Positions 1 through 64,000 of a stretch of 64,000 nt of DNA are shown in pieces. The stretch lies in NCBI GenBank assembly GCA_034509925.1, contig CM067537.1:1357501-1421500 (forward strand). Reading direction: 5' to 3'. The first letter of the stretch is position 1, and each line of letters starts with the position of its first letter. The position numbers and the translations under genes were made by a program. The notes below the pieces were generated by a model, which made no database searches, had not been told where the DNA came from, and saw only the letters and a list, made by a program, of their open reading frames with translations. The stretch is from Hirudinaria manillensis (lineage: Eukaryota; Annelida; Clitellata; Hirudinida; Hirudinidae).

Positions 1-3000
1 AGAACACGCCACTGTTTTTGCAAGTATCAATAATTTTCAAATAATATCAACAAACATGACAATAAGATTCGTTATTTATTACTAACACAACCTTACTCAT
101 ACTTTTTGGGAAAGCTTGCAAGCAGGGCTCGGGAGACTACGTGGCCTGTTCTCAGTTATTTAAATGTGCATCTAAGCACGACATGTATGGTGACTGTGGT
201 TCTGATGGTTGTAGAGACGAATTTGCCGGAAGACATTGTTTAGGAAAAGGTACTTCATTTGATCCAAACGTATCCATTGTTTAAACATTCTTATATTTCG
301 GGTAAGTGACGCGGTGAGTGAGCATTTTCCGCGAAGAACTACAAAACGAAGGCACTTTTAAAAGTTAATAACGACATTTTTGATTTTTACTGGAAAACGT
401 AAAAACATTAATTATATTGGTTAGACAAAGAGTAAAAAACAAATAATGCAATACGAACAACGTAATTATTACAATAATATTGAAATGTAATGAAACGAGC
501 ATATTTTAGATGTCATAACACTTTCATTTAGAGGTTGGCGGTGATACACTGGATATCTCCGGTGATCCAACAGGTGACCCTTTAGAAATATGCCTGGATA
601 ATCACCTGTGCGAACACATGCCTCTAACAAGTTGCAAAATGGGTGAAATCGAAGTGTTTTGTGCTTGCGTGGATGGTTATTTCAGGGATCCAGATCAATC
701 TGAATGTCTAGGCAAGTTATTGGAAACACTATATATGTAGTAACAAAGTGAAACTATCAACTTGAATAGTAACGTTAATATATTATCGTTAACGAAGTAA
801 CAGACATAGCAGTAGTAACCATTTGCTTTTTCATCAAAATCTATTTTTATTAAATTTAGTTCACATAGTTTAATAAATTATTCCTTTCTAAAAGATAATG
901 AGGCTATTCGCATGGCCTCTTACAAATTAACTGTTATTAATATTATAATTATAAACGTGATTGCCAAAGAAATGTAAATAAATAAATAAACTTAAAAAAA
1001 AGATTAGCAGTGAAAATCCGTTATTAATTATTTAGATCTAGACGAATGCTTAGGAGAACCGTGTGAAGACGAATTAAGAATGTGTTTGAACCTGAACGGT
1101 TCTTATATGTGTGCTTGCAAACCCGGCTTCTTGGAAATTGATGGCACATGCTTTGGTATTACAAAAGTTATAAAATATTTAATCAATATAAGACAAATTA
1201 TACAATTTTTGAAATTACTTTAGAATGGAATAAATAAAATAAAATAAAATAAATAAATAAATAAATGGTGGTTCATCTATTAAAAATCCTTACCCTTACC
1301 CTTACCCATCCACAAGAAAGGTCCTACCACTTCTCTTGAAAACTATAGACCGATATCAATTACATCAACTAGCTGTAGAACTATGGAAAGAATAATCAAT
1401 AAATTTCTGATGCAACACCTTTTAAACCACAAGCTCATCGACTGCAACCAGCATGGCTTTATTCCCGCACGTTCAACCACCACTAACATCCTCGAATGCA
1501 CTCACCATTGGACAGAAACCATACAAAACAGACAAAATTTGGACATCATCTACTTGGATTTTCGCAAGGCCTTCGACTCTGTATCTCACTCAAAACTAAT
1601 GCTCAAAATTAGCACTTATGGTCTTAGTGACAATGTGATAGGATGGATTAGCGACTTTCTTAATCTGCGAACGCAAAAAGTCATAATAAACGGCTCTGTC
1701 TCGGAAGAGGTTGCCGTTACTAGTGGAGTTCCCCAGGGGAGTGTTCTTGGGCCAACATTATTTTTACTCTACATAAACGACCTTCCTGGCTTATTCAAGA
1801 ACTCAGACACAATTTGTAAGCTCTTCGCTGATGACATAAAGCTTTACAATAGTTCTCCTCTCCAGCTGCAGAGATCTCTTGATACGATAGTGGAGTGGAG
1901 TGAGAGATGGCAGCTACAACTCGCTCCCGACAAATGTCAGATTCTCTCATTAATTGGCTGCAAAAGATCTTTTCATCCAAATGAATATTGTATTCACAAC
2001 CACATACTGTCAAGAGTTAACTTGATTCGAGATCTAGGAATACTCATAGATTCTTCGCTCCGACTTGACAAACACATAGATAACATCACCAGAAAGGCAG
2101 CTACAATATCCAAACTGATTCTAGCATCATTTTCCTCACGTGACCATGACATCCTCATAAGGGCATTTTGTACCTTTGTTAGGCCAATACTCGAGTATGG
2201 CTCTCCTGTATGGAACCCACACAAAAAACTTCTCATCGATAGGCTTGAACAGATCCAAAAAAGATTCACCAAGGCCATTCCCACACTGGCCAAATATCCT
2301 TATCTGCTGAGACTAAAGATTCTTAAATTGCCCACCCTAGAAAAACGAAGACTACTGGCCGATCTCACCATGTGTTTTAAATTACTAAAAGGCCTTACTA
2401 ATAGCAAAATCTCCACTACTCTCAACAGATCAACATACAATAGGACCAGAGGCCACAACTACAAACTCAGGACAAACAAATTCCGTTGTAATACTTCCAA
2501 ATACTTTTTCTCCAATCGAATTGTCAAATCCTGGAACACCCTGCCAGCCCATGTCGTTAACTCCTCTACCACGTCCCGCTTCAATGCTGAGATCCACAAA
2601 TTGAACCTTAACCAATACCTTAAATATCATGAACCCTAAGAGCTTACATCTGTACAAGAGTTTTTTTTTTGTTTTTGTTTTTAAGTCCGAATGGCGATTG
2701 TTTATGTTCTATTTGCGCTTCAGTTGTTTTTTTTTTTCGAACGTGTCAGAGGCCTCGGCCCTTCGTTCGTCTCGAATAAATAAAATAAAATAAAATAAAT
2801 AAATAAATAAATGGTGGTTCATCTATTAAAAATCCTTACCCTTACCTCAACAGCCTAATATAATTTGGAGACCCCTTTTCCCCCAATACGAAGCAATAGC
2901 TGTGTTTTCGCGTCTTAGCCAAAAGACTCTTTTGGATTTAACTTGAAAATAAGCTTTTAATAAATGGAAAAATCTAAGGAATCGTTCAAAATGTTTAATA

Positions 3001-3447
3001 ATAATTAAAATTGATTAATTAATTTAGTGAATATTCATTACGTGCAGTCAACGTGACAATAAATTCTGACGAGGAGAGTTTAGGGACTGTGATGATCCTC
3101 ATTATCCCGTTAATTATCCTAATTGCCCTGGCTCTGACCCTGGCTTGGTTTGGATGTTGTTTAATAAATTATCACATGATTATTTAATCATTTAATATTT
3201 AATTTTCATTAATATGAACAACCATTTCTCGTGTTATAGGTCCGCCGTTAATAAAAAGCCAAAGAAAAAAGAATCTATAAGCAGTAGTTCAACGGGTACA
3301 AGTAGGACTAGTAGAGGTTCCAAGACCATATCTAGTGGAATGTCCAAGACCACTATTGGATCTACGAAAAAGGGTGTTGTGGGTACAACAAAGGCTGCTG
3401 TGGGCAAAACAAAGGCTGTTGCGGGTACATCAAAGGCTAAACATTGA
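1..3447 (+). CDS. Receptor gene A (5' end outside window): WSC end, EGF-like, EGF, EGF-Ca, TM, tail
   Basis: Only the 3' half is present. Exons read as <1-23, 115-249, 532-711, 1036-1155, 3048-3147 and 3240-3447. The first 23 bases are the end of a second WSC domain (…EHATVFA). Next come a six-cysteine EGF-like module (ending GRHCLGK), an EGF (CACVDGYFRD), and an EGF-Ca starting DLDEC with the NGSYMCAC core. The transmembrane exon has an NVT glycosylation site and the helix core LIIPLIILIALALTLAW. The tail is rich in Ser, Thr and Lys and ends …SKAKH. Introns are GT-AG and in phase, except after the EGF exon (711/712), which starts GCAAGT. The intron at 1156-3047 carries a LINE insertion. The tail has three copies of a 7-residue K-x-x-V/A-G-x-T repeat. 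The family plan comes from the complete copies B and C; the exon ends are inferred. Confidence 0.85.
1229..2846 (+). mobile_element. 5'-truncated Jockey/CR1-type LINE with 72-bp direct repeats
   Basis: An open frame from about 1302 to 2639 encodes the reverse transcriptase and C-terminal region of a non-LTR retrotransposon. It contains the NYRPIS block just upstream of the first Met (1383), FRKAFDSVSH, SGVPQGSVLGP, and the catalytic FADD motif. It is followed by a 3' UTR and a 37-bp (AATAAA/AAAT)n tail. The frame has no stops, so the insertion is young. The 5' part, including the endonuclease, is missing. A 72-bp direct repeat (1229-1300 and 2775-2846) flanks it and includes a copy of the tail plus 35 bp of gene sequence. 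The empty site is visible in units B and C (around 7332 and 11837). The 5' junction falls on a CTTACC repeat shared with the target. Confidence 0.92.
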
Positions 3448-4361: not shown

Positions 4362-7300
4362 ATGAATTGTTGCGCGAAAGGCTTTTTTTTCTTTGTCCTG
4401 AATTTATTATCAGGTTAATTTTGTTGAAATAAACATTATTAATTAACTATTTAACCAATTATTTAACCAAACCGTTTTAGAGACTCTAGCAGTTAACCTA
4501 GCTTTATGGAAGACTGCTGCATACTGTAAAGTATATCTCTCCGATGTAATGTTTGACACTAGAAAGCTGCACACAGAAGCTATGACGCATATGTGCCACT
4601 CTAATTCGTATATTAGTGTTAGCCTCGATAATTTCTACATGGTACATTTTGTCACAATCTTTGAAGGATATGGTGAGATTATTTCACAGATATTTCCATT
4701 TGTTGTTATATCTTGGCATTACATTATAAGATTTTGAAATAATAATCATATTTTATAATCATACATTTGTCTACACGACAAAATACATTAAGAAAAAAAC
4801 ATCGAAGTGTATATGTAAAACTCTCAATAATAACTGTCTAGAATTTAACGGTATTTTAAAGGGTCTGTTAATTAATTATTGCTCGAATAATCATAGTAAT
4901 TTTTAGGCAGATGAAATAATTGTTAAACAAACCCTTTCGTAAATTCTGCCGTCCATAGTTCTGTTTGGTAAATAAATGAAATGATTAAGGTAAATTTTGG
5001 AAAAATTATTTTGAATATCTCATGCAATACCTTTATTTAAAGGAACCGGTGGAGGCCAGTTGGACTTTTTCGAGGTGTTCACCATGACTCCTCCATATAT
5101 TAAAATTATGTGCTCCAAATACCCTGGAAAGACTGGAATTAGGAGAGGCTATCGAGTCAACTGCGTACCTGTGACATTACCCACCCCAGAAGTAATAATA
5201 GATTCAATGAAAAACAAGGGTTTTTACATTACCGAGATTGAGGTTCACACTCTAGGTAGAATTGTTTTCATAATACTCGACTTAATTGGCAAATAAAGTA
5301 CATCCAACTTTATGTAATTCCTACACATTGTCAGGCGTGGGACACCCGTCGGAACACATTTTGATTCATCGCGGATGTTATGAAGATTTCGGTGAGAAAA
5401 CAATCAGTTCTAAAATGGAATTGGAAATATGCCAATCGTCTTGCTTATCGGACAGTTACATATTTGCCGGAATCAAAGTCAAGTTGCAACTTTTGTGATA
5501 TTAGAAACTGTAATGAATAGTTACTTCTTCTTGAATAGGGTAGCTCAAAGGAATGCCTTTGTGCAAATAACATCAAAGAAGGCACTGAAAGATCTTCGAA
5601 TATGTGTAACTATGTATGTGTTGACGGAGTGCACAATTGCGGTGGTGATGGTTATGCTTCAGTTTATCTGAGTAGGTGTTTGAACAATTTGTCGATCTTG
5701 TACTGAGAGATGAAAATAAAATTCTCTTACATATAATACATTCTATTCCAGTTCTTCCGCCATTGCCGCATTTCAGGGGCTGTTTGAAAATAGAACCGAA
5801 ATCTTTAGAAGTAGCTGAGAAAATTTCTGACATGACGATAGACAAGTGTCTGCTCTTATGTGACGCTCACAGATACGCATTGCTACATGTAACGGTCCAA
5901 CTTTGTTCATGTTTTTAAACTTATCATTTTTTCGTTATTATCAAATTATGTTTTCATAGGATAACTTTGAATTGCACTAAGTTATATTTTCAAAGAATGG
6001 TGATACTTGCTTTTGCAAGGATGACATCGATACCGTTATCGTCACCCATGACATGACAAATTGCAATATTATGTGCGGAGGCCAGCCAAATATTATGTGT
6101 GGGGGGCTAGAACACGCCACTGTTTTTGCAAGTATCATTAATTTTCAAATAATATCAACAAACATGACAATAAGATTCGTTATTTATTACTAACACAACC
6201 TTACTCATACTTTTTGGGAAAGCTTGCAAGCAGGGCTCGGGAGACTACGTGGCCTGTTCTCAGTTATTTAAATGTGCATCTAAGCACGACATGTATGGTG
6301 ACTGTGGTTCTGATGGTTGTAGAGACGAATTTGCCGGAAGGCATTGTTTAGGAAAAGGTACTTCATTTGATCCAAACGTATCCATTGTTTAAACATTCTT
6401 ATATTTCGGGTAAGTGACGCGGTGAGTGAGCATTTTCCGCGAAGAACTACAAAACGAAGGCACTTTTAAAAGTTAATAACGACATTTTTGATTTTTACTG
6501 GAAAACGTAAAAACATTAATTATATTGGTTAGACAAAGAGTAAAAAACAAATAATGCAATACGAACAACGTAATTATTACAATAATATTGAAATGTAATG
6601 AAACGAGCATATTTTAGATGTCATAACACTTTCATTTAGAGGTTGGCGGTGATACACTGGATATCTCCGGTGATCCAACTGGTGACCCTTTAGAAATATG
6701 CCTGGATAATCACCTGTGCGAGCACATGCCACTAACAAGTTGCAAAATGGGTGAATTCGAAGTGTTTTGTGCTTGCGTGGATGGTTATTTCAGGGATCCA
6801 GATCAATTTGAATGTCTAGGCAAGTTATTGGAAACACTATATATGTAGTAACAAAGTGAAACTATCAACTTGAATAGTAACGTTAATATATTATCGTTAA
6901 CGAAGCAACAGACATAGCAGTAGTAACCATTTGCTTTTTCATCAAAATCTATTTTTATTAAATTTAGTTCACATAGTTTAATAAATTATTCCTTTCTAAA
7001 AGATAATGAGGCTATTCGCATGGCCTCTTACAAATTAACTGTTATTAATATTATAATTATAAACGTGATTGCCAAAAAAATGTAAATAAATAAATAAACT
7101 TAAAAAAAAGAATAGCAGTGAAAATCCGTTATTAATTATTTAGATCTAGACGAATGCTTAGGAGAACCATGTGAAGACGAATTAAGGATGTGTTTGAACA
7201 TGAATGGTTCTTATACGTGTGCTTGCAAACCCGGCTTTTTGGAAATTGATGGCAAATGCTTAGGTATTACAAAAGTTAAAAAAATTTAATCAATTTAAGA

Positions 7301-7930
7301 CAAATTATACAATTTTTGAAATTACTTTAGAATGGTGGTTCATCCATTAAAAATCCTTCCCCTTACCTCAACAGGCTTATATAATTTGGAGACCCCTTTT
7401 CCCCCAATACGAAACAGTAGCTTTCGATGTTTTCGCGTCTTAGCGAAAAGACTCTTTTGGATTTAATTTGAAATTAAGCTTCTAATAGGTGTAATAATCT
7501 AAGGAATCGTTCAAAATGTTTAATAATAATTAAAATTGATTAATTAATTTAGTGAATATTCATTACGTGCAGTCAACGTGACAATAAATTCTGACGAGGA
7601 GAGTTTAGGGACTGTGATGCTCCTCATTATCCCGTTAATTATCCTAATTGCCCTGGCTCTGACCCTGGCTTGGTTTGGATGTTGTTTAATAAATTATCAC
7701 ATGATTATTTAATCATTTAATATTTAATTTTCATTAATATGAACAACCATTTGTCGTGTTATAGGTCCGTCGTTAATAAAAAGCCAATGAAAAAAGAATC
7801 TATAAGCAGTAGTTCAACGGGAACAGGTAGGACTAGTAGAGATTCCAAGACCATATCTAGTGGAATGTCCAAGACCACTATTGGATCTACGAAAAAGGCT
7901 GTTGTGGTTACATCAAAGGCTAAAAATTGA
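4362..7930 (+). CDS. Receptor gene B: SP, F5/8-like, 2 WSC, 3 EGF-type, TM, short tail
   Basis: Twelve exons give a 568-residue protein: 4362-4413, 4481-4672, 5043-5255, 5335-5477, 5539-5671, 5752-5888, 5996-6131, 6223-6357, 6640-6819, 7144-7263, 7573-7672, 7765-7930. All exons join in frame. Signal peptide is residues 1-17 (MNCCAKGFFFFVLNLLS). The F5/8/fucolectin-like domain covers about 18-152, from AVNLALWK to ITEIEVHTLG. WSC1 is 153-245 (HRGCYEDF … ECLC … NCGGDGYASVYL). WSC2 is 245-336. The EGF-like module is 336-380, EGF 381-440, EGF-Ca 441-480 (DLDEC). The helix is about 494-514, followed by SVVNKKPMKK and a Ser/Thr/Lys tail. The start is fixed by alignment with C, D and E. The EGF exon donor (6820) is GC instead of GT. 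The tail has one copy of the 7-residue repeat. A role in surface recognition is inferred from the modules. Confidence 0.88.
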
Positions 7931-8858: not shown

Positions 8859-11800
8859 ATGAATTGTTGCGCGAAAGGCTTTTTTTTCTTTGTCCTGAAT
8901 TTATTATCAGGTTAATTTTGTTGAAATAAACATTGTTAATTAACTATTTAACCAATTATTTAACCAAACCTTTTTAGAGACTCTAGCAGTTAACCTAGCT
9001 TTATGGAAGACTGCTGCATACTGTAAAGTATATCTCTCCGATGTAATGTTTGATACTAGAAAGCTGCACACAGAAGCTATGACGCATATGTGCCACTCTA
9101 ATTCGTATATTAGTGTTAGCCTCGATAATTTCTACATGGTACATTTTGTCACAATCTTTGAAGGATATGGTGAGATCATTTCACAGATATTTCCATTTGT
9201 TGTTATATCTTGGCATTACATTATAAGATTTTGAAATAATAATCATATTTTATAATCATACATTTGTCTACACGACAAAATACATTAAGAAAAAAACATC
9301 GAAGTGTATATGTAAAACTCTCAATAATAAGTGTCTAGAATTTAACGGTATTTTAAAGGGCCTGTTAATTAATTATTGCTCGAATAATCATAGTAATTTT
9401 TAGGCAGATGAAATAATTGTTAAACAAACCCTTTCGTAAATTCTGCCGTCCATAGTTCTGTTTGGTAAATAAATGAAATGATTAAGGTAAATTTTGTAAC
9501 AAATATTTTGAATTTCTCATGCAATACCTTTATTTAAAGGAACCGGTGGAGGCCAGTTGGACTTTTTCGAGGTGTTCACCATGACTCCTCCATATATTAA
9601 AATTATGTGCTCCAAATACCCTGGAAAGACTGGAATTAGGAGAGGCTATCGAGTCAACTGCGTACCTGTGACATTACCCACCCCAGAAGTAATAATAGAT
9701 TCAATGAAAAACAAGGGTTTTTACATTACCGAGATTGAGGTTCACACTCTAGGTAGAATTGTTTTCATAATACTCGACTTAATTGGCAAATAAAGTACAT
9801 CCAACTTTATGTAATTCCCACACATTGTCAGGTGTGGGACACCCGTCGGAACACATTTTGATTCATCGCGGATGTTATGAAGATTTCGGTGAGAAAACAA
9901 TCAGTTCTAAAATGGAATTGGAAATATGCCAATCGTCTTGCTTATCGGACAGTTACATATTTGCTGGAATCAAAGTCAAGTTGCAACTTTTGTGATATTA
10001 GAAACTGTACTGAATAGTTACTTCTTCTTGAATAGGGTAGCTCAAAGGAATGCCTTTGTGCAAATAACATCAAAGAAGGCACTGAAAGATCTTCGAATAT
10101 GTGTAACTATGTATGTGTTGACGGAGTGCACAATTGCGGTGGTGATGGTTATGCTTCAGTTTATCTGAGTAGGTGTTTGAACAATTTGTCGATCTTGTAC
10201 TGAGAGATGATAATAAAATTCTCTTACATATAATACATTCTATTCCAGTTCTTCCGCCATTGCCGCATTTCAGGGGCTGTTTGAAAATAGAACCGAAATC
10301 TTTAGAAGTAGCTGAGAAAATTTCTGACATGACGATAGACAAGTGTCTGCTCTTATGTGACGCTCACAGATACGCATTGCTACATGTAACGGTCCAACTT
10401 TGTTCATGTTTTTAAACTTATCATTTTTTCGTTATTATCAAATTATGTTTTCATAGGATAACTTTGAATTGCACTAAGTTATATTTTCAAAGAATGGTGA
10501 TACTTGCTTTTGCAAGGATGACATCGATACCGTTATCGTCACCCATGACATGACAAATTGCAATATTATGTGCGGAGGCCAGCCAAATATTATGTGTGGG
10601 GGGCTAGAACACGCCACTGTTTTTGCAAGTATCATTAATTTTCAAATAATATCAACAAACATGACAATAAGATTCGTTATTTATTACTAACACAACCTTA
10701 CTCATACTTTTTGGGAAAGCTTGCAAGCAGGGCTCGGGAGACTACGTGGCCTGTTCTCAGTTATTTAAATGTGCATCTAAGCACGACATGTATGGTGACT
10801 GTGGTTCTGATGGTTGTAGAGACGAATTTGCCGGAAGGCATTGTTTAGGAAAAGGTACTTCATTTGATCCAAACGTATCCATTGTTTAAACATTCTTATA
10901 TTTCGGGTAAGTGACGCGGTGAGTGAGCATTTTCCGCGAAGAACTACAAAACGAAGGCACTTTTAAAAGTTAATAACGACATTTTTGATTTTTACTGGAA
11001 AACGTAAAAACATTAATTATATTGGTTAGACAAAGAGTAAAAAACAAATAATGCAATACGAACAACGTAATTATTACAATAATATTGAAATGTAATGAAA
11101 CGAGCATATTTTAGATGTCATAACACTTTCATTTAGAGGTTGGCGGTGATACACTGGATATCTCCGGTGATCCAACTGGTGACCCTTTAGAAATATGCCT
11201 GGATAATCACCTGTGCGAGCACATGCCACTAACAAGTTGCAAAATGGGTGAATTCGAAGTGTTTTGTGCTTGCGTGGATGGTTATTTCAGGGATCCAGAT
11301 CAATCTGAATGTCTAGGCAAGTTATTGGAAACACTATATATGTAGTAACAAAGTGAAACTATCAACTTGAATAGTAACGTTAATATATTATCGTTAACGA
11401 AGCAACAGACATAGCAGTAGTAACCATTTGCTTTTTCATCAAAATCTATTTTTATTAAATTTAGTTAGTTCACATATTTTAATTAATGATTCCTTTCTAA
11501 AAGATAATGAGGCTATTCGCATGGCTTCTTACAAATTAACTGTTATTAATATTAACTGTTTATAATTATAAACGTGATTGCCGAAAAAATGTAAATAAAT
11601 GAACTTAAGAAAAAAATTAGCAGTGAAAATCCGTTATTAAATATTTAGATCTAGACGAATGCTTAGGAGAACCATGTGAAGACGAATTAAGGATGTGTTT
11701 GAACATGAATGGTTCTTATACGTGTGCTTGCAAACCCGGCTTTTTGGAAATTGATGGCAAATGCTTAGGTATTACAAAAGTTAAAAAAATTTAATCAATT

Positions 11801-12456
11801 TAAGACAAATTATACAATTTTTGAAATTACTTTAGAATGGTGGTTCATCCATTAAAAATCCTTCCCCTTACCTCAACAGGCTTATATAATTTGGAGACCC
11901 CTTTTCCCCCAATACGAAACAGTAGCTTTCGATGTTTTCGCGTCTTAGCCAAAAGACTCTTTTGGATTTAATTTGAAATTAAGCTTCTAATAGGTGTAAT
12001 AATCTAAGGAATCGTTCAAAATGTTTAATAATAATTAAAATTGATTAATTAATTTAATGAATATTCATTACGTGCAGTCAACGTGACAATAAATTCTGAC
12101 GAGGAGAGTTTAGGGACTGTGATGCTCCTCATTATCCCGTTAATTATCCTAATTGCCCTGGCTCTGACCCTGGCTTGGTTTGGATGTTGTTTAATAAATT
12201 ATCACATGATTATTTAATCATTTAATATTTAATTTTCATTAATATGAACAACCATTTGTCGTGTTATAGGTCCGTCGTTAATAAAAAGCCAATGAAAAAA
12301 GAATCTATAAGCAGTAGTTCAACGGGAACAGGTAGGACTAGTAGAGATTCCAAGACCATATCTAGTGGAATGTCCAAGACCACTATTGGATCTACGAAAA
12401 AGGCTGTTGTGGGTACAACAAAGGCTGTTGTGGGTACATCAAAGTCTAAAAATTGA
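8859..12456 (+). CDS. Receptor gene C: near-identical copy of gene B
   Basis: Twelve exons give 575 residues: 8859-8910, 8978-9169, 9540-9752, 9832-9974, 10036-10168, 10249-10385, 10493-10628, 10720-10854, 11137-11316, 11649-11768, 12078-12177, 12270-12456. Every exon except the last has the same length as in gene B, and the F5/8 and first WSC peptides are identical. The main coding difference is the tail, which has two 7-residue repeats (ending VVGTSKSKN) against one in B and three in A. The EGF exon again uses a GC donor (11317). The shared open frames, in-phase introns and silent small differences argue for a working gene. AATAAA near 12620 may be the poly(A) signal. Confidence 0.88.
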
Positions 12457-20150: not shown

Positions 20151-20155
20151 CTACA

Positions 20156-25075: not shown

Positions 25076-25310
25076 AATAATAATAATTATATTAATTACG
25101 ACTGCTAAGATTAACAATCAAAGCAATAATAAATACTTATGTAAACGTTTGCGTATTTCTTGCCACCACAATATTTCTTCTGATCGCCAGTGCATGAAAC
25201 GTTGCAGGATTTGTATTCATTGAAATTTGGATGTAATATCGTATTCAAGCAGTAACACTCGTTGCCATTATAATAAACAAATAAATAAAAATAAATAAAT
25301 AAATTCATTA
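25076..25310 (-). pseudogene. Displaced, inverted copy of gene H's second WSC2 exon
   Basis: Reads on the - strand as the second half of a WSC domain: NGNECYCLNTILHPNFNEYK … CTGDQKKYCGGKKYANVYI. It is nearly identical to gene H exon 48298-48430, including about 20-40 bp of flanking intron on each side. The acceptor AG of the gene-H exon (attag) is AT here (attat), so it could not be spliced in the same way. No neighbouring receptor exon on this strand supports a gene. It is a recent duplicate moved about 23 kb. Confidence 0.85.
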
Positions 25311-25322
25311 ATTACTAAAAAA

Positions 25323-41000: not shown

Positions 41001-41285
41001 CAACGCTTCTTGACGAAGCACGGCTGCTCTTTTGTCCTCACAAGGCTTTTCTAAAAAAGAATTGTCCATGCATGGGTTTTTCCCTCAATTCATTTATTCT
41101 TTCTTTCTCCATGTTGTCCTTTAACATTTCTTTCAAGGATGTTTGAACTGTGGGCAAAGGCAGATATTTATTTTTAATTGTCTTTGCTTCCTTAAGGAGA
41201 GATTATTTTGCCTTCCCTGCTTCATGCTTTTTGTTTAAAGAGCCTGCCTTTGCCTTATTCAATAAAATCTCTCAAACTAAACATG

Positions 41286-41380
<95 letters not shown>

Positions 41381-47700: not shown

Positions 47701-47959
47701 GTCCTCACACTGCAGTCTCCCCAGCCACGGCACTCCATTGTAGAACGCCCCGTCTGTGATTGGATTAATTAATTAGCATAATTAACATTAACATAATTAA
47801 TCAACGTAATTAATCTGTTATATGCTCCGGCAGACCGAGCTTGATTCTTTGTCCATTGTCTGGGACGACACATTAAACTAATTAATCATATTTACTTATT
47901 TATTCATTCATTCATTCATTCATTCATTCATTCATTCATTCATTCATTCATTCATTCAT

Positions 47960-48002
<43 letters not shown>

Positions 48003-51000: not shown

Positions 51001-51799
51001 GTTCAAATTACAAACAGTTTATACTGACCTAGGGTGTAGATTTCGATTTCTGCTATTGAAAAGCCAATGTTGATGTGGGATTTTAATCTGACTTTGACGC
51101 TCAAATCTACGAGACAATTGACCCTCATTTTCTGCGGGCCAACGCTGACGCCGGTGAACATGGAACACGGGTACACAGTTCCGTCGGATTTTGTGTTTTC
51201 GACCAAAAAATAATCCAGCGATCCTAAATTTATTAATCTATTTGATTGCAATCGAAGAGGAAAATGTCGACAGATTTCAATAACATTTTCGACTACATGT
51301 TCCCAAAAATTTTGGAATTTGTAAAATCTGATAATCGCTTCCATGGATACTTGACCAGGACGGGTCAAAACTGATTTAAACCGATTAGTTTTTGGGTGGA
51401 ATTAATTTATTGAAGTGAAATCTTGGCCGATGAAATGGTCACCTATAGCGAAGGAAGTTACTCCACTGAAGTAGATAATTTACTGAAGGTTTTGTCCTTA
51501 CAACGTAATCATCGCTTAATCAAGACATCTCTATACAAAAGAAATATGCCCCATTTAATCTATTTAAAATGAATATAATTGTATTTACCATGCAAAACAG
51601 GTTCCCCCTCGTAAACGATGACGTAATGTACGTAGTACGAATCTCCCAGTTTAATATCTATGTACGAGTACTCTTTACATGGAGAATCAATTCTATCGGC
51701 ATTTATTGGGTTCGTATCGCCGTCAACGACCTTAGAAGATAGGAGTGTACTGCAGTAGGTGACCTCTTTGTTCAGTGCCAAATTTACATCGGTGGTTCC
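44744..51799 (-). CDS. Receptor gene H: same architecture, long basic tail, possible frameshift
   Basis: Exons on the - strand: 51799-51589, 51223-51029, 50781-50642, 50209-50086, 49611-49478, 48430-48298, 47753-47631, 47105-47038, 46743-46611, 45902-45780, 45401-45299, 45131-44744. The signal exon was not found upstream. F5/8-like domain has LGDSYYVHYVIVYEG and SIAEIEIYTLG. WSC1 has HYGCSKGF, QCHCGNF and YCGGQ. WSC2 has YSNGCHRE, ECYCLN and YCGGK. Then follow EGF-like, a short Pro/Thr linker exon, EGF, EGF-Ca (DVDEC), and the helix HILVIIPLLGALAISILSW. The candidate tail is about 128 residues, with many Lys and Arg (PPPKKSKTRKKSLRKSLLKK). In the first listed exon an extra T shifts the frame before ALNKEV, with an in-frame TAA. 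An acceptor a little downstream (ending 51770s, aaag) would restore phase but drop the conserved start of the domain. Confidence 0.75.
47893..48004 (+). repeat. Compound (ATTC)n(ATTT)n microsatellite in a gene H intron
   Basis: About 14 attc units run directly into about 12 attt units. A (TTC)n run of 14 units lies nearby at 48544-48585. Both are intronic on gene H's - strand. Confidence 0.95.
48860..49080 (-). mobile_element. Retrotransposon 3'-end fragment between ~70-bp direct repeats
   Basis: A GC-rich island read on - as gacatccgcttgatcaacgg … ggcccagcccccgagg … gggccgaaacactcg … ccctgtc. It matches the end of the decayed retrotransposon at 19990-20130 (gacatccggctgagcactgg … gggccgaaacgttcg … cctgtc). 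The flanks carry a direct repeat of about 70 bp (48765-48833 and 49139-49210) containing tattatccagagtctatcca, with one visible difference. This looks like an insertion with a long target-site duplication, in the intron between the two WSC2 exons of gene H. Confidence 0.75.
49684..49800 (+). repeat. 43-bp tandem repeat, about 2.7 copies
   Basis: Units begin acaaaaagtattcgtacaat. Two are identical, and the third has several changes. It lies in a gene H intron. A related piece (aaaagtattcgtac) recurs near 53482. Confidence 0.9.
50380..50640 (+). repeat. Imperfect repeats of ~45-60 bp in gene H intron
   Basis: Repeats of ttgcaataactctattatt followed by gtattgtatatatagt variants, four or five degenerate copies. 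No coding potential. Confidence 0.8.
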
Positions 51800-52493: not shown

Positions 52494-54912
52494 ATGGTGT
52501 TCCACAGCGATCCTTGTGGAATCATATGCATTATCATTGTATATTCGGCAGTTTTCTATGCCGACTACGTCGTTGTACGGCACATCATAGAACCAACAAT
52601 GTCCGATACGTAAGTCCGGGATTTATTTTTTCTTGATTTTTAATTTACTGCTTACTTACTGTAATTGAGAAATTATGGCAGTTTTATGTCAGATGTGTGA
52701 ATGTTTAGTGTTTGTTTGTATCTTGACTAGCGTGTTTGGTTTTAATTGTTTTATTTTGAAGGTGCTCTAAAGTAGATTGCCTTAGGATAAGTTTCTGGGA
52801 GCAATTTGTAAACAAATCAATCTGTAATTATCCTATGTTGAAAACAATAGACTGGTATTAATTACAAGTGGTCTGGAGAGATAGGATTGCATAATTAATA
52901 TACCACCATAATTAATCAGTATTTATTAACAAATATTCATAATTTAATTGTTGCACACTATTATTATGTTAAGATAATAATTGAAAGAAGAATGGAAAGT
53001 GATTGTACAGTTCTGAGAATCAGAGCTGATTATTAAATAAAATACACAGGTATTATACAGATTACTAAATGAAATACACAGGTATTATACAGATTACTAA
53101 ATGAAATACACAGGTATTATACAGATTATTAAATAAAATACACAGGTATTATACAGATTGCTAAATGAAATACACTGGTATTATACAGCTTATTAAATAA
53201 AATACACAGGTATTATACAGATTATTAAAAGAAAAAATACACAGGTATTATACAGATTATTAAATAAAATACACAGGTATTATACAGATTATTAAATGAA
53301 ATACACAGGTATTATACAGATTATTAAATAAAATACACAGGTATTATACAGATTATTAAATAAAATACACAGGTATTATACAGATTATTAAATAAAATAC
53401 ACAGGTATTATACAGATTATTAAATAAAATACACAGGTCGTATTATACAGCATTTCTGATCAGAATTACATGATAACGTTCAAAAGTATTCGTACTTTTT
53501 ATGGCTCGCGTTGCTTGCTTTTCGCGCGAATTCCAAAGAAACACGTCGACAGGCGACATCTCGAGTCACGCCGTTGAACGAGTCCGAGATTGATTCGTCC
53601 TAAGAAAACCCATTCTCAAATTTGGTCACAGTTCAATGACTAGCGACGCATAGAGCAGTCGTCTGCTCACTCGTGACGCGCGTTGACGCGACTCGGTCGC
53701 GATGCCGGCAGGAAGGAAGTCGCGACGTGGTCTTGCGATTTTCATCCAAGTTTCAAACAAATAAATAAAACAAACGAAAACGTCGGACATTTTTCTCCGA
53801 GCAGGTTGTTGGGAGCCGCCAACGTCGTGGCCTTTAACCTCATCATCTTCTTCATCGTCGTCGCCCACGTCCGCTCGGTCTTCTCCGATCCCGGCACAGT
53901 GCCACTCCCGAGGACGGGACTGGACTTCTCGGACGTCCACGCGGGGCAAAGGATCACGAAAGGGGTTCGGATGGATTTTGAATTGTGTTGACGATGTTGT
54001 CTTTGATGGTAGTTATGGTGGTGGTGGCGGCAGTAATAATAATATTTATTTTATTATAATAATAATAGTAATAATATACAAGTTATAAATAAATAATGCC
54101 AGTATATTCAGGAGTATGGTGGTGGTGGTATTCTGGGAACTTGTATGCGGTGATGGTAGTAATAATAATAATAATAATAATAATGATAAATATAAATTAA
54201 TCAATAACATTAATAATAATAACAATAAAAAAAATTATTATTATTAGTATTATTACAGGAGAATCGTAGTGGTGAATGGGGGGTGATTGGGAACTTGTAT
54301 GGCATTCGAGGGGATAATAAATCTTTTTTTGTGATTTGTGAAATAATAGACAATAATATGTTATTGCAATATTTATAATAGTATTTATATAATATATACT
54401 GTGATAATTAATATTATTATTGTTATCTTGGAATATGATTATGGGTATTATCATGACATTTATGTGGTATTAAGCATTAATATTTTAATAACAATATTTA
54501 TAATATTTAATATAATATTTATAATTACATAATATAGACTATAATAAATATTATTTTAACATCAAAGATTATTTTAATTATGATTGTGGGAATGTCTTCA
54601 TAATAACAAATGTGGGAACAAATAATAATAATAATAATAATAGTAACTTGTCTGCAGAGGTAATTAATGGTAATTATAGATAAATTTGACACTAATAATA
54701 ATAATAATAATAATAGTAACTTGTCTGCAGAGGTAATTAATGGTAATTATAGATAAATTTGACAATAATAATAATAATAATAATAGTAGTATCTAAATAG
54801 TATTTAATTTTAATAATAGTAATAACACCATAATTATTAATATTCATTGTATAATAATAATAATAATGTCTAAATAACATTTACTAATAACAATAATAGT
54901 ATTTAATTTTAA

Positions 54913-54953
<41 letters not shown>

Positions 54954-55576
54954 CAGGAGAACGGCTGGACAATCTGCCTGAAGTGTGAGACGTACAGGCC
55001 ACCACGGGCCCATCACTGCAGGGTCTGCAGAAGGTGCATCAGGAGGATGGATCACCACTGCCCCTGGTAGTTGTGATGATGATGATGATGACGACGATGA
55101 TGATGATGATGAGGACCATGATGATGATGATGACGACGACGATGAGGACCATGATGATGATGATGATGATGATGAGGACCATGATGATGGGTCTAAGAGA
55201 GGAAGCCAGTCTTTTTAAAAAATGTTTAATGGGCATTTGTCATGTGTTTTGAGATGATGATGGTGATGATAATATTATAATAGTAATAATATTAATAGTA
55301 ATAATAATAATATGTAGATTAACCAATTACAACCACATCGTATAAACATTGTTATTTTTTTTAATGTTGTTTGCTATTATTATTATTTATTATTATTATT
55401 ATTTATTATTATTATTATTATTATTATTTATTATTATTATTATTTATTATTATTATTATTTATTATTATTATTATTATTTATTATTATTATTTATTATTA
55501 TTATTATTATTATTATTTATTATTATTATTTATTATTATTATTATTATTTATTATTATTATTATTTATTATTATTA

Positions 55577-55615
<39 letters not shown>

Positions 55616-57212: not shown

Positions 57213-60200
57213 GAAGCAGACGATGACCACGCAGTCGAAACTATTTGTTGATGTTTCGTCTTTGCTCGACGAAAATCGTATTTTTCTTCGTTTCTGACGG
57301 TTTTATACACTTTTAGTGTTTACAAGTGATGTTTATTTATCTTCGTTTCCATCTCTATGATCCCAGATTTTGCGGGCAAGCTATGAGGTTATAAGGATGT
57401 CGGAGGCGGCCGTTTTTGTCGCACCCTTCTGTCGGTGTCGCGCTCTCGGTTTGTTGTTGTTGAACAACAACAACTTTTGAGTTGAGAGAAGTTGCGCAAA
57501 AGTACTTTTCAGGCTCTTGCATGGTCACGATGGCCGTGTTGCTGATCTCTGAAGTGGAAGAAATTATTTTTGACGAAACTTTCCGCCTAACGTGAGGCGT
57601 CTGCTTCTCGCGAGTCGCGTCGGTTTGCATAGTCGTTTCGGTCTCCTTCGACCTGCACGCAACGTCATCGGACGTCTGTCAATGACCGACGTAGTGCTTA
57701 CTGTTGTTGTTGCTGTTGTAGTCATTGTTGTTGTGGTTGTTGATGTTGCAGTCGTTGCTGTTGCAGTCATTGTTGTTGTTTTTGTAGTTGTTGCTTTGTT
57801 TTGTGAGACCAACGTATTCCAGGGGCTTCTCCATTCGGGCGTCTTGGAGTTTCTACATTATTTTGCTACCTTTAACTTTAAGCTTTCTACGTCGACGTCC
57901 AAGTTCGACGGTCATGGAATGACATTGGTTGTCATGACGACGCTGCGAGTTGACGTTCTTTTTGCCAGTCGATCGATCCTCAACTCTGCTTTAATGCCGC
58001 ATCCTCCAATCCGATCCTCGATCGAATCTTTTCGTCGAAAACCCCGCAACGCCCACGACCCCGATCAGAACGCACTTTCCACCTACATGCCCCCGATCAG
58101 GATGCACTTTGATCTCTTCGAGTCCCTATGTGAATGAATGAAGCATGTGTTCCTTACTGTTTTTAAATCACCTTCACCACTCTATTGTGATCGATTTTCC
58201 TGAATATCAATTTTTTTTTCTTTGAGTTGATGCTTTGTCACTGACCTACCGTTTTTAGGAATACTTTGTGGATTGCCTACCTTTTGAATTGGTTTTGTTT
58301 TAATTAATTAATTAATATTTTATTAATTATTAAACTTAAATATTTCGTTAACATATGACCTTTGATCTTCGACCTTCGCTCGAGTATACTTTTCTTTTTT
58401 CTTTATATCCAGTGTTTTTACTGTATTTTTGCTGTAATTTGCAATCAAATCATCAAAATGTTTGCATGAATTGCTGCTACAGCACCTTTGTTTTCAAAGG
58501 TTTTCGTGTGCATGGATTCATCTCCGAGCATGCATTTTGGAGGAGAACAACACTCTAGTAACGGTGTTACTACAGAGGCATCATCATGCCTTGAAGTTTT
58601 GATTTTTTTTTTTTAGTTTTTCTTTTTCTGCTGTCTGTGATTCGCAAGAAACTGAGAGCTGCATGAACCCCGATTATTATTAGATCAATGGATCGCTCAC
58701 TCAATCAATCAAAACGGTAAAACTTTGAATCGTCGACGTTGGTGCCTGTCGGTTTGTTTTGTATGCGGGCGTCTTCGTATGCGAATGTACGCCGTTGTAT
58801 CGCTCACTCGCGTCGGGTCTGCTTTGATAGGCTTCACCGCGTTTTAGATTCCCAACCGTGCACTGCAATCCCACTTTGCTCGAATCTTTTACAGTTTGGC
58901 GCCCCCGATTGCAGACGCCTATCGAAATAAACCTATTAGTGGCCATCATGACAACGCCTGCCGAAGTTGTAGTCGTTTTCCTCGGCCGAGCGAGCAGTGA
59001 GTCGCCAAAGACGGCGAATGTCGAGCCGAGACCTGTCAAAATTTGGTGCACAATACTTTGGATTTGGAGCATTTTGATGAAAAGTTACAGGGACATTTCA
59101 GTTTTTTTTTATTCAGTGGGGGCAGGCTGACCCGTGGACAAGACAGGGGGGGGCCTCTTTGTTTCTTACAAATATTTGTGGGATGTGAAGAAAATGAAAG
59201 TTCTGATTACGTAACATTATGTTCTGGAAGCCTTTTGTGGACAAAATACCGACATCTTTTTGTACTGTTTATTTTTATTTTACTGTTTATTTGAGGTTTA
59301 TTCCGAACCGGGAGTAGAATCCACCTGCGGTTCATGCTAGTGGGGACTTTGCGATTTGCTTTGATGAGTTTTGAATTTATTTTGATAAACGTTGAATATC
59401 GTTTCAAGTAAAGTCAGAGTTCCTGAGTAAAACACAAAGTCACGGATCAGCTTCCCAAAAATTCTGGGACTTTTTTCTAAAGAAGAACAAAATCAGAGAT
59501 TAATTTGGTATGTTTTATTTTTAATTCTGTGAATTCTTCAAATCCAATTAAGAGTTGAATCCCTTGAAATCCATAAACGGAGGACGAATGGTTCTGTCCT
59601 CCGCAGTTCTGTTCCGAATCTCCGGAGCACAAATGAATTACCCATTCCTAGGTCATACCATTGCAACCAATACTGTTGCATAAGATAAAAGCTAAAAGTA
59701 TGTGCTGCAACAGTTACGCAATCAAATCAAAATACAAACACAAACGCCAAAGATTGCATCTGATGCTAAGAATTTATGGCGCCATACAAATGAACTTAAT
59801 GATAATAGTATCATCACCACCACCATCGTCGTCGTCGTCGTCTTCTAAAAATGGCGCCGGACGGCATAGTAGCAATGCAAATAGATTCGAAATAACACGA
59901 CCTAATCACTCGATCGTAACACTTTTTATCCGACTTCAATCCCAACCTACATGTATTCATCGGACGATTTGTTATTTTCTTGTTTTAATTATTTATTAAA
60001 TATTTTCCCGGCACAAAATGCTTAAAACAGAAATAATTCAAGACGAACATGGAATTAGGCCATTAACAGTTTGAGGAACAAGAAGGAACAACCAGTAGAT
60101 TCTAGGTAAATATTAAATAAATGTTAAATATAAATAAATATGATAAAGGTAAATTATAAATAAATAAATAAAATGATAAACTGGTTGTGATAATATTCAA

Positions 60201-60830: not shown

Positions 60831-60869
<39 letters not shown>

Positions 60870-60923
60870 TTTGTTTGTTTATTTATTAATGAATCTAATT
60901 AAGCATCTAATTTGCAAACTGAC
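57213..60923. other. Gene-poor interval after the DHHC gene
   Basis: No credible exon or domain is found on either strand. It may begin with the DHHC 3' UTR; no clear AATAAA is seen in the first 200 bp. A GTT/TTG-rich stretch lies at 57695-57800, and ATTT repeats at 60800-60890. The last exon (tail) of gene I on the - strand is expected just below 60924. A weak candidate after an acceptor near 60750 (C-T-V-Q-Y-N-S, stop) is not supported by similarity. Confidence 0.5.
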
Positions 60924-63900
60924 CAACAGAAAATGATAACCATGATAGTCATTGGAATCATGAACCAAATAATGTTCACCAGGATGGAAATTGGAAAATT
61001 CTTCTGCATTTCACTGAAATTTCCTGTTGGACAGAAAAATATTGTTTTATTTATTTAATTAATTAATTAATTAATTATTTAATTATTTACTTATTAATTA
61101 TTAGTTATTTATTTATTTAATTTATTTATTTATTATTATTATTACACTATTATTAGGCATTAATCTAGTAACAAGTACCTATGCAAATGTCTTCAGTCTT
61201 GATGAAATGCAATTTACAAACACAAACGAATGAACCGAACGTGTTTTCGCATTGTGATGTTTTCGTGTCGCAAGGTTCGAAGATGCATTCGTCAACATCT
61301 GATGTTGTAATATTATTAATAATTATAATTATAATAATAACAAAAAAATAATAATAATAATAATAACAATAATTATAATAATAATAAATAGTAATAGTAA
61401 TGGTGATAATAATAATAAATAGTAATAATAATGGTGATGATAATAATAATAATAACAATTATAATAATAATAATAATAACAATAATGATAATAACAATAA
61501 ATGGTAATAATAATGGTGATAATAATAATAATAACAATTATAATAATAATAATAACAATAACTAATAATTGGTTTTAAATTGGTTATCAGAACGTTTTTG
61601 AGGAAGCAGTGCCTACCCTTACATATCCTACTATCGAAGCTTTCATCTTGGAACCCAGGTAAGCATTCACAGGCATAAGTACTTTCCGTTCTCAGGCATT
61701 CCGTATGAGGTCTGACTACGCACGGATCGATGTCAATGCACATTTTTATTTCTGGATTTGTATTTGAACTTTTACACAAAGTAATTTCGTTCATCGGAAT
61801 CAGAGTTTACGAAATTTTACAATCGCCTTTTAGGTGTATTTTCGTGAATAATTCGTGAATAAAATCCGTTATATATGAATTATTATTATTATTATTATTA
61901 TTAATGGCAAATATTTCAGTATTAATAGAATATTTAGAATAAATGGAATAATAGGCAAACAAAACAATAGCATATGGAAAACATATTGCATCGTATCACA
62001 TTACCAAGCAAGCAGACGACCCTCTGGATATCGGATACCTTTTTCAAGGCAGTGTTCTCCAATGAATCCGTTCACACATCTACCAGTACAGGCTCCGTAC
62101 TCGTTCCACTTTCCAGAACATCGAAACAACTTCGTACAAGACGTTACAACATTAGAGGGTCCTGTACAAACTGTTTAACGTCAGTACGTATCAGTACAAA
62201 ATAGTTTCCAAAGAGTAGGTTTATAAACCAAGCCAAGCCAAGTTACTGTGGTAGACAGAAACGTGATCTTGTCCACCGCAAAACGATTCAGAATCTCCTG
62301 AGCACTTTGAATTGCAAGCCTCTGATCGTTCATGAGGCGTGCTTTCTCCATTTGAGCACAGGCAGAAAGAGCCATCCTTTGGGAGACAATTTTTTGTTGA
62401 AGAGACTACTACTGTATTCTAGACTCGAACTTATTTGGAAATAAAATATGAAAACAAAAAAAAAACAATTATGTCAAAAAATGCTCTAAAATCATGGATT
62501 ATCGTTCGTTTAGAACCTACCAACAGCGCTGCCTCAGAATGGTTTTCACAGTGATGGAGACATTTCGAAACTGTCAGATCTTTGAGTTTCTTGGGAATAC
62601 TGGTGTCGTCACTGGCATTGTGATTCTTGCATCCGTCATAAAGTGGCAGTTGGACGTACACTTAAGCAGATACACGTAAGCAATTAATGATGCAAAAAAT
62701 AAATGAATTATTAAATGTTATTTTACGGTAATTAATGTATTTAACAGGATTTCTTGCGTACCGAGATAAACAGAATAAGTTCCGTTACCACCACATTGTA
62801 TGTCGGAATCGTAGCAAAAGTACTGGCATTCCTTCAGCGAAACTTCGTGTTCATCGCTGTATTCATTTCCGCAATAACAGGTTTCGTTATCCTTAGCAAT
62901 GAAATCATTTCTATTTTTTTGATCAAATATGGGATAAATTAATGAAAATAAAAACTATTTCTAGTCATAAACTATGATATGTATTTCAATGTTTAATCAA
63001 ATGTTAATGATTTTGGAACTCGCCCAAAAGGATACTATTAGGTAATTATATTAGTACGATATTATTATAGATATTATTATTGCAGAGCTAAAAGTACCTT
63101 AATCGCTATAAAGGGGTAATACTTCAACGAGCAGAACGTTTGGCACGATTTGTAGTTCGTGAGTCTGGTCGAAATGTTACTAGGGAAAGACTCAAAACAT
63201 CCACGAAGCAGTAGAACATTTTCTCCCGGTTCCCCAGAACCTATTTTGAAGTCCAGAATTTAAGATATTTTAAATTAAATTAAAAAAAAACCAGATATTT
63301 AACAAATACTCAAATACGAATTTAATTAGCAGCTAATTTAATTCCAACGATTTACCGAAAGTGTTGACTTCAATTTCGGCGATGTTTAATCCATAATTTT
63401 TTTCTGACCTCAGTTCGACCACGGAGGACTTCCGGTTAGTTGATTTGCAGTTGACCCTCATCGGCTTCCTGCTCCGTTTGCTGGGCATCGGAAATTGTGC
63501 GCAAAGGCGCGAAGCCATGTCGGAACTTTCGGTGTAAATCCAGAAATAATCCAGTTGGCCTTTGTATTTCTCTAGAGCGGATTAATATGTCTGAGTCAAT
63601 CACTTGGGATATAAAGCGGGAATACAATTTGTGTCATTATATCATGTTCTTCAAGTCTAACGGGACAAAGTAAAAAATAAAATAAATAAATAAATAAACG
63701 TATTTAAAAAAATAAATTGTACACCCTTGGAAAAGTGTCTGGCAAATGTTGCTTTCATTAGAGCCACTACATACGTCGTCTCCTCTCTTTACCAATTTCT
63801 CAGTCGATGATATATCAGAAATTGTCTAGAAAATGGCGGAAGATTTGCTAACCATTGCCGTAACTTCCCTCGTAGACGATCACGTAGTGAACGTAGAATG

Positions 63901-64000
63901 ATCCATCGAGACCAATCTTTATGTAAGCATTAATAAGGCAATTCCGGTCTATTCTTTCTGCCGACGAAGCATTAAAGATGCCGTCGACAATGATTGGAGA
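60924..64000 (-). CDS. Receptor gene I (5' end outside window, tail exon not found)
   Basis: Exons on the - strand: >64000-63853, 63571-63356, 63240-63098, 62891-62762, 62660-62521, 62376-62247, 62170-62039, 61751-61617, 61298-61179, 61023-60924. The partial F5/8-like domain has FYVHYVIVYEGSYGN and ends NIAEIEVNTFG. WSC1 has LRGCFESF, TCYCGN and QCGGNGTYSVYL. WSC2 has LYDGCKN, FCLCSNGES and FCGGQDHVSVYH. EGF-like has GRCVNGFIGEHCLEK. EGF has CIDIDPC and YACECLPGF. EGF-Ca begins DVDEC. The helix exon has NFS and then ILVNIIWFMIPMTIMVIIF. Phases agree with the other members throughout. It has the same orientation as gene H, with the DHHC gene between them. Confidence 0.83.

Follow-up and report, generated by a model that had tools for sequence, protein, structure and literature searches.

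A tandem array of at least nine predicted membrane receptor genes with divergent F5/8, WSC and EGF modules in the leech Hirudinaria manillensis

Several described proteins share modules with the genes analysed here. Kremen is a Kringle-WSC-CUB membrane protein with a single WSC domain, lacking both F5/8 and an EGF stalk, and acts as a developmental co-receptor. The discoidin domain receptors (DDRs) and neuropilins carry F5/8 on a single-pass receptor, have no known WSC and are not known to occur in large tandem arrays; the DDRs also have a kinase. Fibrillin (FBN1) has many calcium-binding EGF (Ca-EGF) repeats and TB modules, and no WSC. Alr in hydroids and FuHC in Botryllus are loci made up of tandem, multi-copy, divergent surface receptors. 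In the annelid Glycera, the venom protein glycerotoxin is described as having two WSC domains, Ca-binding EGF and at least three paralogues (excerpts of PMC5336659). On platelets and endothelium, the proposed ligands of the salivary F5/8 (discoidin) proteins described in leeches are collagen or phosphatidylserine (excerpts of PMC7191736). FBN1 is reported among the most expanded leech genes, with twelve copies in two bloodsucking leeches versus four or none in non-bloodsucking ones, and its expression is reported to rise during bloodsucking (excerpts of PMC10087013).

The stretch of DNA analysed here (the window, 64,000 nucleotides) contains nine gene units lying side by side, A to I, all with the fixed module order F5/8-like, WSC, WSC, EGF, EGF, Ca-EGF and transmembrane (TM). 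Exon HMMs find the domain exons F58a, F58b, W1a, W1b, W2a, W2b, E1, E2 and E3 as a full ordered set in 9/9 units, and each unit also has a hydrophobic, predicted TM exon. At E<0.01 there are 106 exon matches in the window (some exons score with two related HMMs), against 0, 3, 0, 0, 0, 0, 0, 1, 0 and 1 in ten first-order Markov surrogates. This bears out the original prediction of at least nine receptors of the order F5/8-WSC-WSC-EGF-EGF-EGF, together with its strand assignment, seven on + (A to G) and two on - (H and I). The first exon HMMs were trained on C, E, F, G, H and I, so that only A, B and D are independent detections. Unit B is nearly identical to the training unit C.

Seven units (B, C, E, F, G, H and I) have spliced models; the window cuts through A, and D has open exons but no spliced model. 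The exons of A before EGF1 lie to the left and were taken from the flanking locus, as was the remainder of the first F5/8 exon of I, which crosses the right end. Intron phases were imposed in the final models; in unconstrained modelling G and H deviate at the EGF1 intron, E deviates at one intron and I yields no chain. A signal-like first exon was placed in five units (B to F). The features are as follows, exons being given in the order of transcription.

117 to 3444, + strand: unit A, 3' part, HMM exons without a spliced model; EGF1 117-248, EGF2 525-710, EGF-Ca 1038-1154, TM 3050-3181, assumed tail 3196-3444 (Ser/Thr/Lys-rich open frame); earlier exons begin at C12:1355875, left of the window.
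1284 to 2633: reverse-transcriptase ORF between the EGF-Ca and TM exons of unit A.
4362 to 7930, + strand: unit B, spliced model and HMM exons; signal-like 4362-4413; F5/8-like 4490-4672 and 5043-5255; WSC1 5335-5477 and 5539-5671; WSC2 5752-5888 and 5996-6131; EGF1 6223-6357; EGF2 6640-6819; EGF-Ca 7144-7263; TM 7573-7672; tail 7765-7930.
8859 to 12456, + strand: unit C, exon set as in B, Pfam run; signal-like 8859-8910, tail 12270-12456.
13306 to 18300, + strand: unit D, HMM exons, outer ends approximate and set by eye; F5/8-like 13427-13624 and 13873-14082; WSC1 14162-14302 and 14853-14981; WSC2 15103-15237 and 15338-15472; EGF1 15573-15701; EGF2 17029-17244, separated from EGF1 by a long ATTC-type microsatellite; EGF-Ca 17589-17705; TM 18067-18195.
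25138 to 25278, - strand: orphan WSC2 second-half exon, clear, 91% identical to the unit H exon.
25302 to 25388, + strand: possible orphan partial WSC exon, weak (E 0.0046).
25839 to 29945, + strand: unit E, spliced model, HMM exons, Pfam; signal-like 25839-25890; F5/8-like 25964-26149 and 26398-26610; WSC1 26687-26829 and 27377-27509; WSC2 27628-27764 and 27865-28000; EGF1 28098-28229; EGF2 28627-28800; EGF-Ca 29214-29333; TM 29667-29811; tail 29879-29945.
31551 to 36904, + strand: unit F, spliced model, HMM exons, Pfam, last exon unplaced; signal-like 31551-31590; F5/8-like 31868-32071 and 32292-32504; WSC1 32860-32996 and 33331-33460; WSC2 33684-33823 (the HMM end; the spliced-model exon extends to 33880) and 34191-34320; EGF1 34790-34918; linker and EGF2 35333-35584; EGF-Ca 36133-36255; TM 36764-36904.
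38664 to 43936, + strand: unit G, spliced model, HMM exons, Pfam, signal exon unplaced; F5/8-like 38664-38870 and 39588-39809; WSC1 39987-40123 and 41506-41635; WSC2 41775-41914 and 42004-42130; EGF1 42192-42320; Thr-rich linker and EGF2 42821-43100; EGF-Ca 43236-43403; TM 43752-43936; a tail exon may lie near 44029-44136.
45235 to 51798, - strand: unit H, spliced model, HMM exons, Pfam, signal exon unplaced; F5/8-like 51798-51589 and 51223-51029; WSC1 50781-50642 and 50209-50086; WSC2 49611-49478 and 48430-48298; EGF1 47753-47631; EGF2 46746-46611; EGF-Ca 45902-45780; TM 45401-45235; tail possibly longer, below 45235.
59570 to 59635, - strand: possible orphan partial WSC exon, weak (E 0.00043).
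60908 to 64000, - strand: unit I, spliced model, HMM exons, Pfam, signal and last exons unplaced; F5/8-like 64000-63853 (start beyond the window, in L011) and 63571-63356; WSC1 63240-63098 and 62891-62762; WSC2 62660-62521 and 62376-62247; EGF1 62170-62039; EGF2 61794-61617; EGF-Ca 61298-61179; TM 61023-60908.

Judged from their sequence, these are repeated tandem units encoding a divergent F5/8 domain, two WSC, two EGF-like domains, a Ca-binding EGF and one predicted TM helix. Pfam was run on six of the nine units (C, E, F, G, H and I). WSC (PF01822) scores above its curated cut-off in all six models, at 29.5-63.4 bits versus 27.8, in two stretches per model, and EGF_CA (PF07645) exceeds its 27-bit curated cut-off in five, unit E reaching 26.8. 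Pfam F5/8 is found in none of the six models at E<=0.1, and in none of 17 N-terminal domains from C12 at E<=1. The profile-HMM check suggested with the original prediction thus supports its WSC and Ca-EGF modules and gives no direct detection of F5/8; the F5/8 call itself holds as homology, by way of a paralogue on C11 and of profile comparison.

The C11 paralogue (L008) has the module order of the window units and a Pfam-positive F5/8 domain. Its unconstrained intron phases, 1,1,0,1,0,1,1,1,1,1,1, resemble those of the unconstrained models of C and F. When the N-terminal profile was aligned by hhalign with eight F5/8 rows, of which one (L008) was itself shown to be Pfam-positive and four came from loci fetched with PF22633, a match of 96.7% probability was obtained over columns 4-137, whereas reversed and five shuffled controls gave 0.0-0.7% and WSC and EGF profiles 0.1-5.4%. 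Against three vertebrate fucolectin rows alone there was no match (2.2%). A PDB search with the N-terminal profile returned two sequences at E<=10, both of one fucolectin-type F5/8 domain (E 0.073 and 0.092). On these profile comparisons, the N-terminal domain is a divergent F5/8 (discoidin-type) domain that Pfam does not detect. Four cysteines peculiar to it are strongly conserved, and in the copies read an intron divides it. The pattern H-X(20-28)-R-X-D-X(3-5)-R/K, which we take to be the fucose-binding motif of fucolectins, is absent from all 26 N-terminal rows (two being partial reads of unit I); glycan binding can therefore not be assumed, and the N-terminal head may lack sugar binding.

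The window units are members of a larger family of several dozen copies. The second F5/8 exon (F58b) occurs in at least 60 copies genome-wide, 55 of them on C12 at 0.15-1.65 Mb, this count being a lower bound from a search that favours good matches. Within 219.5 kb of C12 there are 37 exon groups, 22 with at least seven of the nine exons and 15 with fewer, some of the latter being merely cut or split by the grouping. Recent duplicates (A to C at 98-99% identity, D and E at 92%, as measured for unit E versus unit D over the nine domain exons) occur together with divergent members at 29-41%, and the tree consists of young tandem clades and old branches. Unit C is 99% identical to unit B over the nine domain exons, and the assembly may contain some such copies as haplotype duplicates.

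That level of identity, the 15 smaller C12 groups and the orphan exons might suggest that the array consists mostly of decaying copies and assembly duplicates with little function. This appears very unlikely to us: none of the 60 F58b matches has an internal stop, albeit in a search biased towards good ones, the divergent units F to I have each of the nine domain exons and keep most of their cysteines, and dN/dS values lie mostly below 1. The original prediction counted at least five broken pieces between the units; this number is not reproduced, the exon HMMs locating three orphan WSC pieces in the window, two of them weak. These two, at 25302-25388 and 59570-59635, score near the surrogate matches.

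Pooled dN/dS for close pairs is 0.20-0.97 across ten exon types, and 1.10 for W1a in the class of six mid-divergence pairs; pairs with zero differences, more than 25% difference or fewer than 25 aligned codons were dropped, and the pairs kept are non-independent. These values show mostly purifying selection, and positive selection at gene scale was not found in them. Receptors for self/non-self (allorecognition) or for gamete recognition would fit a tandem, multi-copy set of divergent surface receptors like the Alr and FuHC loci. However, the pooled dN/dS gives the self/non-self role put forward in the original prediction no support, and tyrosine is lacking in the tails as modelled (B, C and E). 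Mitochondrial sequence speaks for a leech and against a sponge or another colonial animal: AGR stands at conserved Ser, ATA at conserved Met and AAA at a conserved Lys site, and COX1 shares 96-97% identity with H. manillensis and Poecilobdella javanica. To our knowledge, the leech is a solitary worm rather than a fusing colony, with no colony fusion known. We regard such a role as scarcely probable at all.

A full-length search of 5.8 billion proteins, which relies on shared words of five letters and may overlook relatives, gave no full-length relative and one EGF-driven match. The corresponding N-terminal search gave one 75-residue piece on a 4.4-Mb ENA contig, apparently an F58a exon from a different genome. 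No named family with the order F5/8-WSC-WSC-EGF-EGF-Ca-EGF was found in the literature (open-licence PMC papers). The earlier suggestion that the family may be undescribed is in keeping with both searches, and this predicted leech receptor family is apparently undescribed.

In the PDB, the full-length profile best matches EGF-type proteins (CD97, NELL2, NELL1, LTBP1 and fibrillin). The EGF modules are stalk-like, and a family of extracellular-matrix or adhesion proteins serving tissue stretch and feeding, its members perhaps auto-annotated as fibrillin from their best Ca-EGF matches, would also fit the FBN1 expansion in bloodsucking leeches (excerpts of PMC10087013). Such a matrix role is nevertheless somewhat unlikely, as all nine units have a predicted TM exon. 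They also contain WSC and F5/8, which as far as we know are not fibrillin modules. The identity of the published FBN1 copies with genes of the window type is a guess.

The predicted TM exon of 9/9 units also argues against ectodomains being shed, or alternatively spliced, into saliva, where they would act on host haemostasis or immunity. The salivary F5/8 proteins of leeches (excerpts of PMC7191736) and the Ca-EGF and two WSC of another annelid's venom protein (excerpts of PMC5336659) speak for this, but the terms WSC and EGF have no occurrence in the main text of PMC7191736 or PMC7303139, and we consider it highly improbable.

The reading that we favour, and to which we give an even chance, is that the family consists of leech type I membrane receptors in tandem, which would most likely serve defence cells or gut/epithelial cells in lectin-like recognition or in adhesion. 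At the cell surface, the F5/8 and WSC heads would bind ligands such as the glycans or glycoproteins of host blood, of gut microbes or pathogens, or of neighbouring cells, with the EGF modules forming the stalk. Tandem duplication would enlarge the repertoire, while individual copies are born and lost. That the tails modelled for units B, C and E are short and free of tyrosine points to capture, adhesion or a co-receptor function rather than direct tyrosine signalling. A putative role in immune or microbe recognition is possible. A more far-reaching proposal, which we think unlikely, is a leech recognition system of several dozen to more than 100 germline genes with divergent F5/8-WSC heads, mostly near one chromosome end and kept young by tandem duplication, whose combinatorial expression on gut cells or defence cells would allow vertebrate blood, symbionts and pathogens to be distinguished, the reported 'FBN1 expansion' being this family misnamed.

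If the favoured reading is true, a medically used blood-feeder has a large receptor family whose N-terminal domain is invisible to Pfam, and the units are a concrete gene set for studying annelid recognition of microbes or host blood. Best matches to Ca-EGF proteins such as FBN1 may conceal the family in leech gene counts linked to blood feeding.

In comparison with known systems, glycerotoxin resembles the window units in being an annelid protein with two WSC and Ca-binding EGF, but it is a venom protein of ~140-150 kDa that contains a CCP domain and, at its C-terminus, no known domain, and excerpts of its description report no F5/8 and describe no membrane anchor (PMC5336659). Kremen, a surface protein as the units are predicted to be, shares WSC with them, and PDB chains of Kremen 1 match their second WSC (E 3e-8 to 6e-8). 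DDRs and neuropilins have F5/8 on a single-pass receptor, as is predicted for the units, and differ in having no known WSC. Unlike FBN1, the units contain WSC and one Ca-EGF, with no TB module in the Pfam matches of the six models. Fucolectin and F5/8 type C domains are homologous to the N-terminal domain by way of the leech C11 F5/8 domains, although the N-terminal domain has no fucose motif, has its own four cysteines and fails against the three vertebrate sequences alone. On C11 itself, L008 has the module order in common with the window units, and the intron phases as far as the first Ca-EGF, and is distinguished by three Ca-EGF and its Pfam-positive F5/8. The C11 genes L036-L038 share the modules in a different order, with WSC first, F5/8 next, and then EGF and Ca-EGF (frames by eye).

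The nine gene copies of the window (C12:1357501-1421500) have a common exon order: a signal-like exon, two F5/8-like exons, two exons each for WSC1 and WSC2, then EGF1, EGF2, Ca-EGF, a transmembrane (TM) exon and a tail. This order was obtained from reading frames, a splice-site chain builder and exon profile HMMs, and upholds the original prediction of nine units with a single module order, as well as its count of seven on the plus strand (A to G) and two on the minus strand (H and I). All nine domain exons and the TM exon are present in 9/9 units, A and I having been completed from the flanking loci using the exon HMMs. The signal-like exon was placed in B to F, and the EGF2 exon comes with a linker, which is Thr-rich in G. 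The exon HMMs, which were partly trained on these window genes, gave 106 matches in the real window and 0–3 in ten Markov surrogates. At least five further broken pieces had been noted originally; these were not reproduced, the exon HMMs finding one clear and two weak orphan WSC exons in the window. Other features within and beside the array are listed here.

Other sequence features, in window coordinates unless stated
1284-2633 (+): reverse-transcriptase ORF (RVT_1, 132.5 bits) inside an insertion in A, between the Ca-EGF and TM exons
15760-17000: long ATTC-type simple-repeat tract between exons of D, whose domain exons are open
33860-34130: long tetranucleotide tract reading MYVC between exons of F, whose domain exons are open
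54900-55067 (+): exon from an unrelated DHHC palmitoyltransferase gene, situated between H and I (Pfam on six window ORFs)
1402-2163 of L012, a locus to the right of the window: forkhead gene exon (Pfam Forkhead, 56.8 bits)

Profile-HMM scanning of six of the nine spliced proteins (C, E, F, G, H and I) bore out two of the three predicted domain types. WSC is above the Pfam cut-off in 6/6 and EGF_CA in 5/6, the exception being E (26.8 against 27), while F5/8 was found by Pfam in 0/6. The same was true of isolated N-terminal domains (0/17, taken from 26 distinct rows extracted). Across the genome (148.4 Mb, 23 contigs) there are at least 96 WSC exon matches, 150 of 333 candidates having been scored.

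On the basis of its sequence relationships, the N-terminal domain is nevertheless F5/8 by descent, though far diverged. The decisive evidence is a paralogue on contig C11 (L008), a gene with the module order F5/8, WSC, WSC, EGF, EGF, three Ca-EGF and TM. Its joined protein is above the Pfam cut-offs for PF22633 (33.5 against 27.8), PF00754 (29.0 against 28.2), WSC (87.1) and EGF_CA (65.2). With none imposed, its intron phases are 1,1,0,1,0,1,1,1,1,1,1, and the unconstrained pattern of C and F is identical. Unconstrained phases deviate in G and H at the intron after EGF1 and at the last exon end, and in E after the first half of WSC2; I gave no exon chain, and in the final window gene models the pattern was imposed.

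Profile comparison supports the same assignment. The 17-row N-terminal profile matches eight F5/8 rows, comprising five from leech (hand-joined from frames) and three eel and bass fucolectins, at a probability of 96.7% across columns 4-137. Controls made by reversal or by column shuffling (five of the latter) gave 0.0–0.7%, and WSC and EGF profiles 0.1–5.4%. Taken separately, the five leech rows gave 97.4%; with just the three vertebrate rows the probability fell to 2.2%. Against the PDB (E<=10), the N-terminal profile found two sequences (E 0.073 and 0.092), which represent a single F5/8 domain of fucolectin type. The fucose motif is absent in 26/26 N-terminal rows.

With 150 of 232 candidates scored, PF22633 matches at least 49 places genome-wide, of which 21 are on C11 (one of them in L008), 20 on C10 and 8 elsewhere. 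The one match among these on C12, the contig of the array, is at 9.2 Mb, far from it. A separate cluster at C10:2.55-2.89 Mb holds 18 of the at least 49 F5_F8_type_C_2 matches. Three loci at C11:2.36-2.45 Mb (L036, L037 and L038) read by eye as WSC, a Cys-rich piece, F5/8, EGF and Ca-EGF; the different order suggests module shuffling within the same animal. A third arrangement, also by eye, is seen at C11:1855423 (L039): F5/8, then Cys-rich repeats resembling those of laminin or MEGF, along with a WSC-like exon.

The family extends well beyond the window. C12:1,240,001-1,459,500 (219.5 kb) contains 37 exon groups, of which 22 have seven or more of the nine domain exons; from 1,421,560 to 1,459,500 the exon HMMs gave no group. 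The second F5/8-like exon (F58b), used as a single query, has at least 60 copies genome-wide at E<=0.001, with internal stops in 0/60. This is a lower bound, because the query recovered 6/8 such window exons and missed those of F and G. Of these copies 55 are on C12, between 153,819 and 1,652,246 (four past 1.46 Mb); C2 has two, and C13, C4 and C9 one each. As a separate observation, mitochondrial COX1 is located on contig C23, and a COX1 stretch (L033, L034) is also found at C9:3026485-3027174 with equal score and identity, which points either to a recent transfer of mitochondrial DNA into the nuclear genome or to a mistake in the assembly. In COX1, AGA/AGG occupy sites conserved as Ser, ATA sites conserved as Met and AAA a site conserved as Lys, a usage consistent with mitochondrial code 5 but not with the codes of sponges, cnidarians, tunicates, echinoderms or flatworms. 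Among named sequences COX1 is closest to Poecilobdella javanica (97%) and Hirudinaria manillensis (96%), with Haemopis, Hirudo and Whitmania following at 86–88%; H. manillensis is the likely species.

A tree built from the 22 groups places A, B and C together with three upstream copies in a young clade, and pairs D with E in a second young clade. F+G is an old branch, as is H+I, less surely (81/71, flagged as long branches meeting). Divergent window units are 29–41% identical to one another; C is 91–98% identical to the units of its clade across introns and exons. A and the copy at C12:1,340,207 have a common insertion of ~1.6 kb at the same place ahead of the TM exon. The clades, the identity and the insertion fit tandem duplication with birth and death of copies.

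Among close pairs, pooled dN/dS spans 0.20–0.97 across ten exon types, with the smallest values in W2b, W1a and E1 and the largest in W2a and W1b (a and b being exon halves of WSC1 and WSC2). More distant pairs gave 0.23–0.78, except W1a (1.10 from six pairs). For the most part, the copies are maintained as proteins; over the ten exon types, pooled pairwise dN/dS demonstrated no diversifying selection.

What the sequence shows is an ectodomain of several domains joined to a predicted membrane helix, in many copies that turn over by tandem duplication. The F5/8 and WSC heads would bind surface ligands, with the EGF modules as a stalk. Since the gene models of B, C and E end in short Ser/Thr/Lys-rich tails that lack tyrosine (A and D are similar by eye), we infer use in adhesion, capture or as a co-receptor. 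Of the possible roles, recognition by defence or gut/epithelial cells is the most probable, and we give the receptor reading as a whole an even chance. A matrix or feeding role ranks next, as a possible but distinctly less probable explanation. Allorecognition, the self/non-self role among those first suggested, is unlikely in a leech.

The proposed search for proteins of the same architecture gave no full-length match among 5.8 billion: the full-length profile matched one, the EGF part of a scallop jagged-1-like protein, in a search that needs shared five-letter words and may miss relatives. The N-terminal profile, under the same restriction, matched one 75-residue piece on an ENA contig, so such a domain probably exists in another genome.

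Fibrillins belong to the Ca-EGF proteins, and the top PDB matches of the full-length profile are proteins of EGF type. For these reasons we would guess that some of the FBN1 copies reported in PMC10087013, which links expansion of that family to blood feeding, may belong to this receptor family. WSC as a term is absent from the main texts of PMC10087013, PMC10494388, PMC11371463, PMC10671345, PMC7191736 and PMC7303139. The nearest described module set is that of glycerotoxin from the bloodworm, as presented in PMC5336659, with its Ca-EGF, two WSC and CCP.
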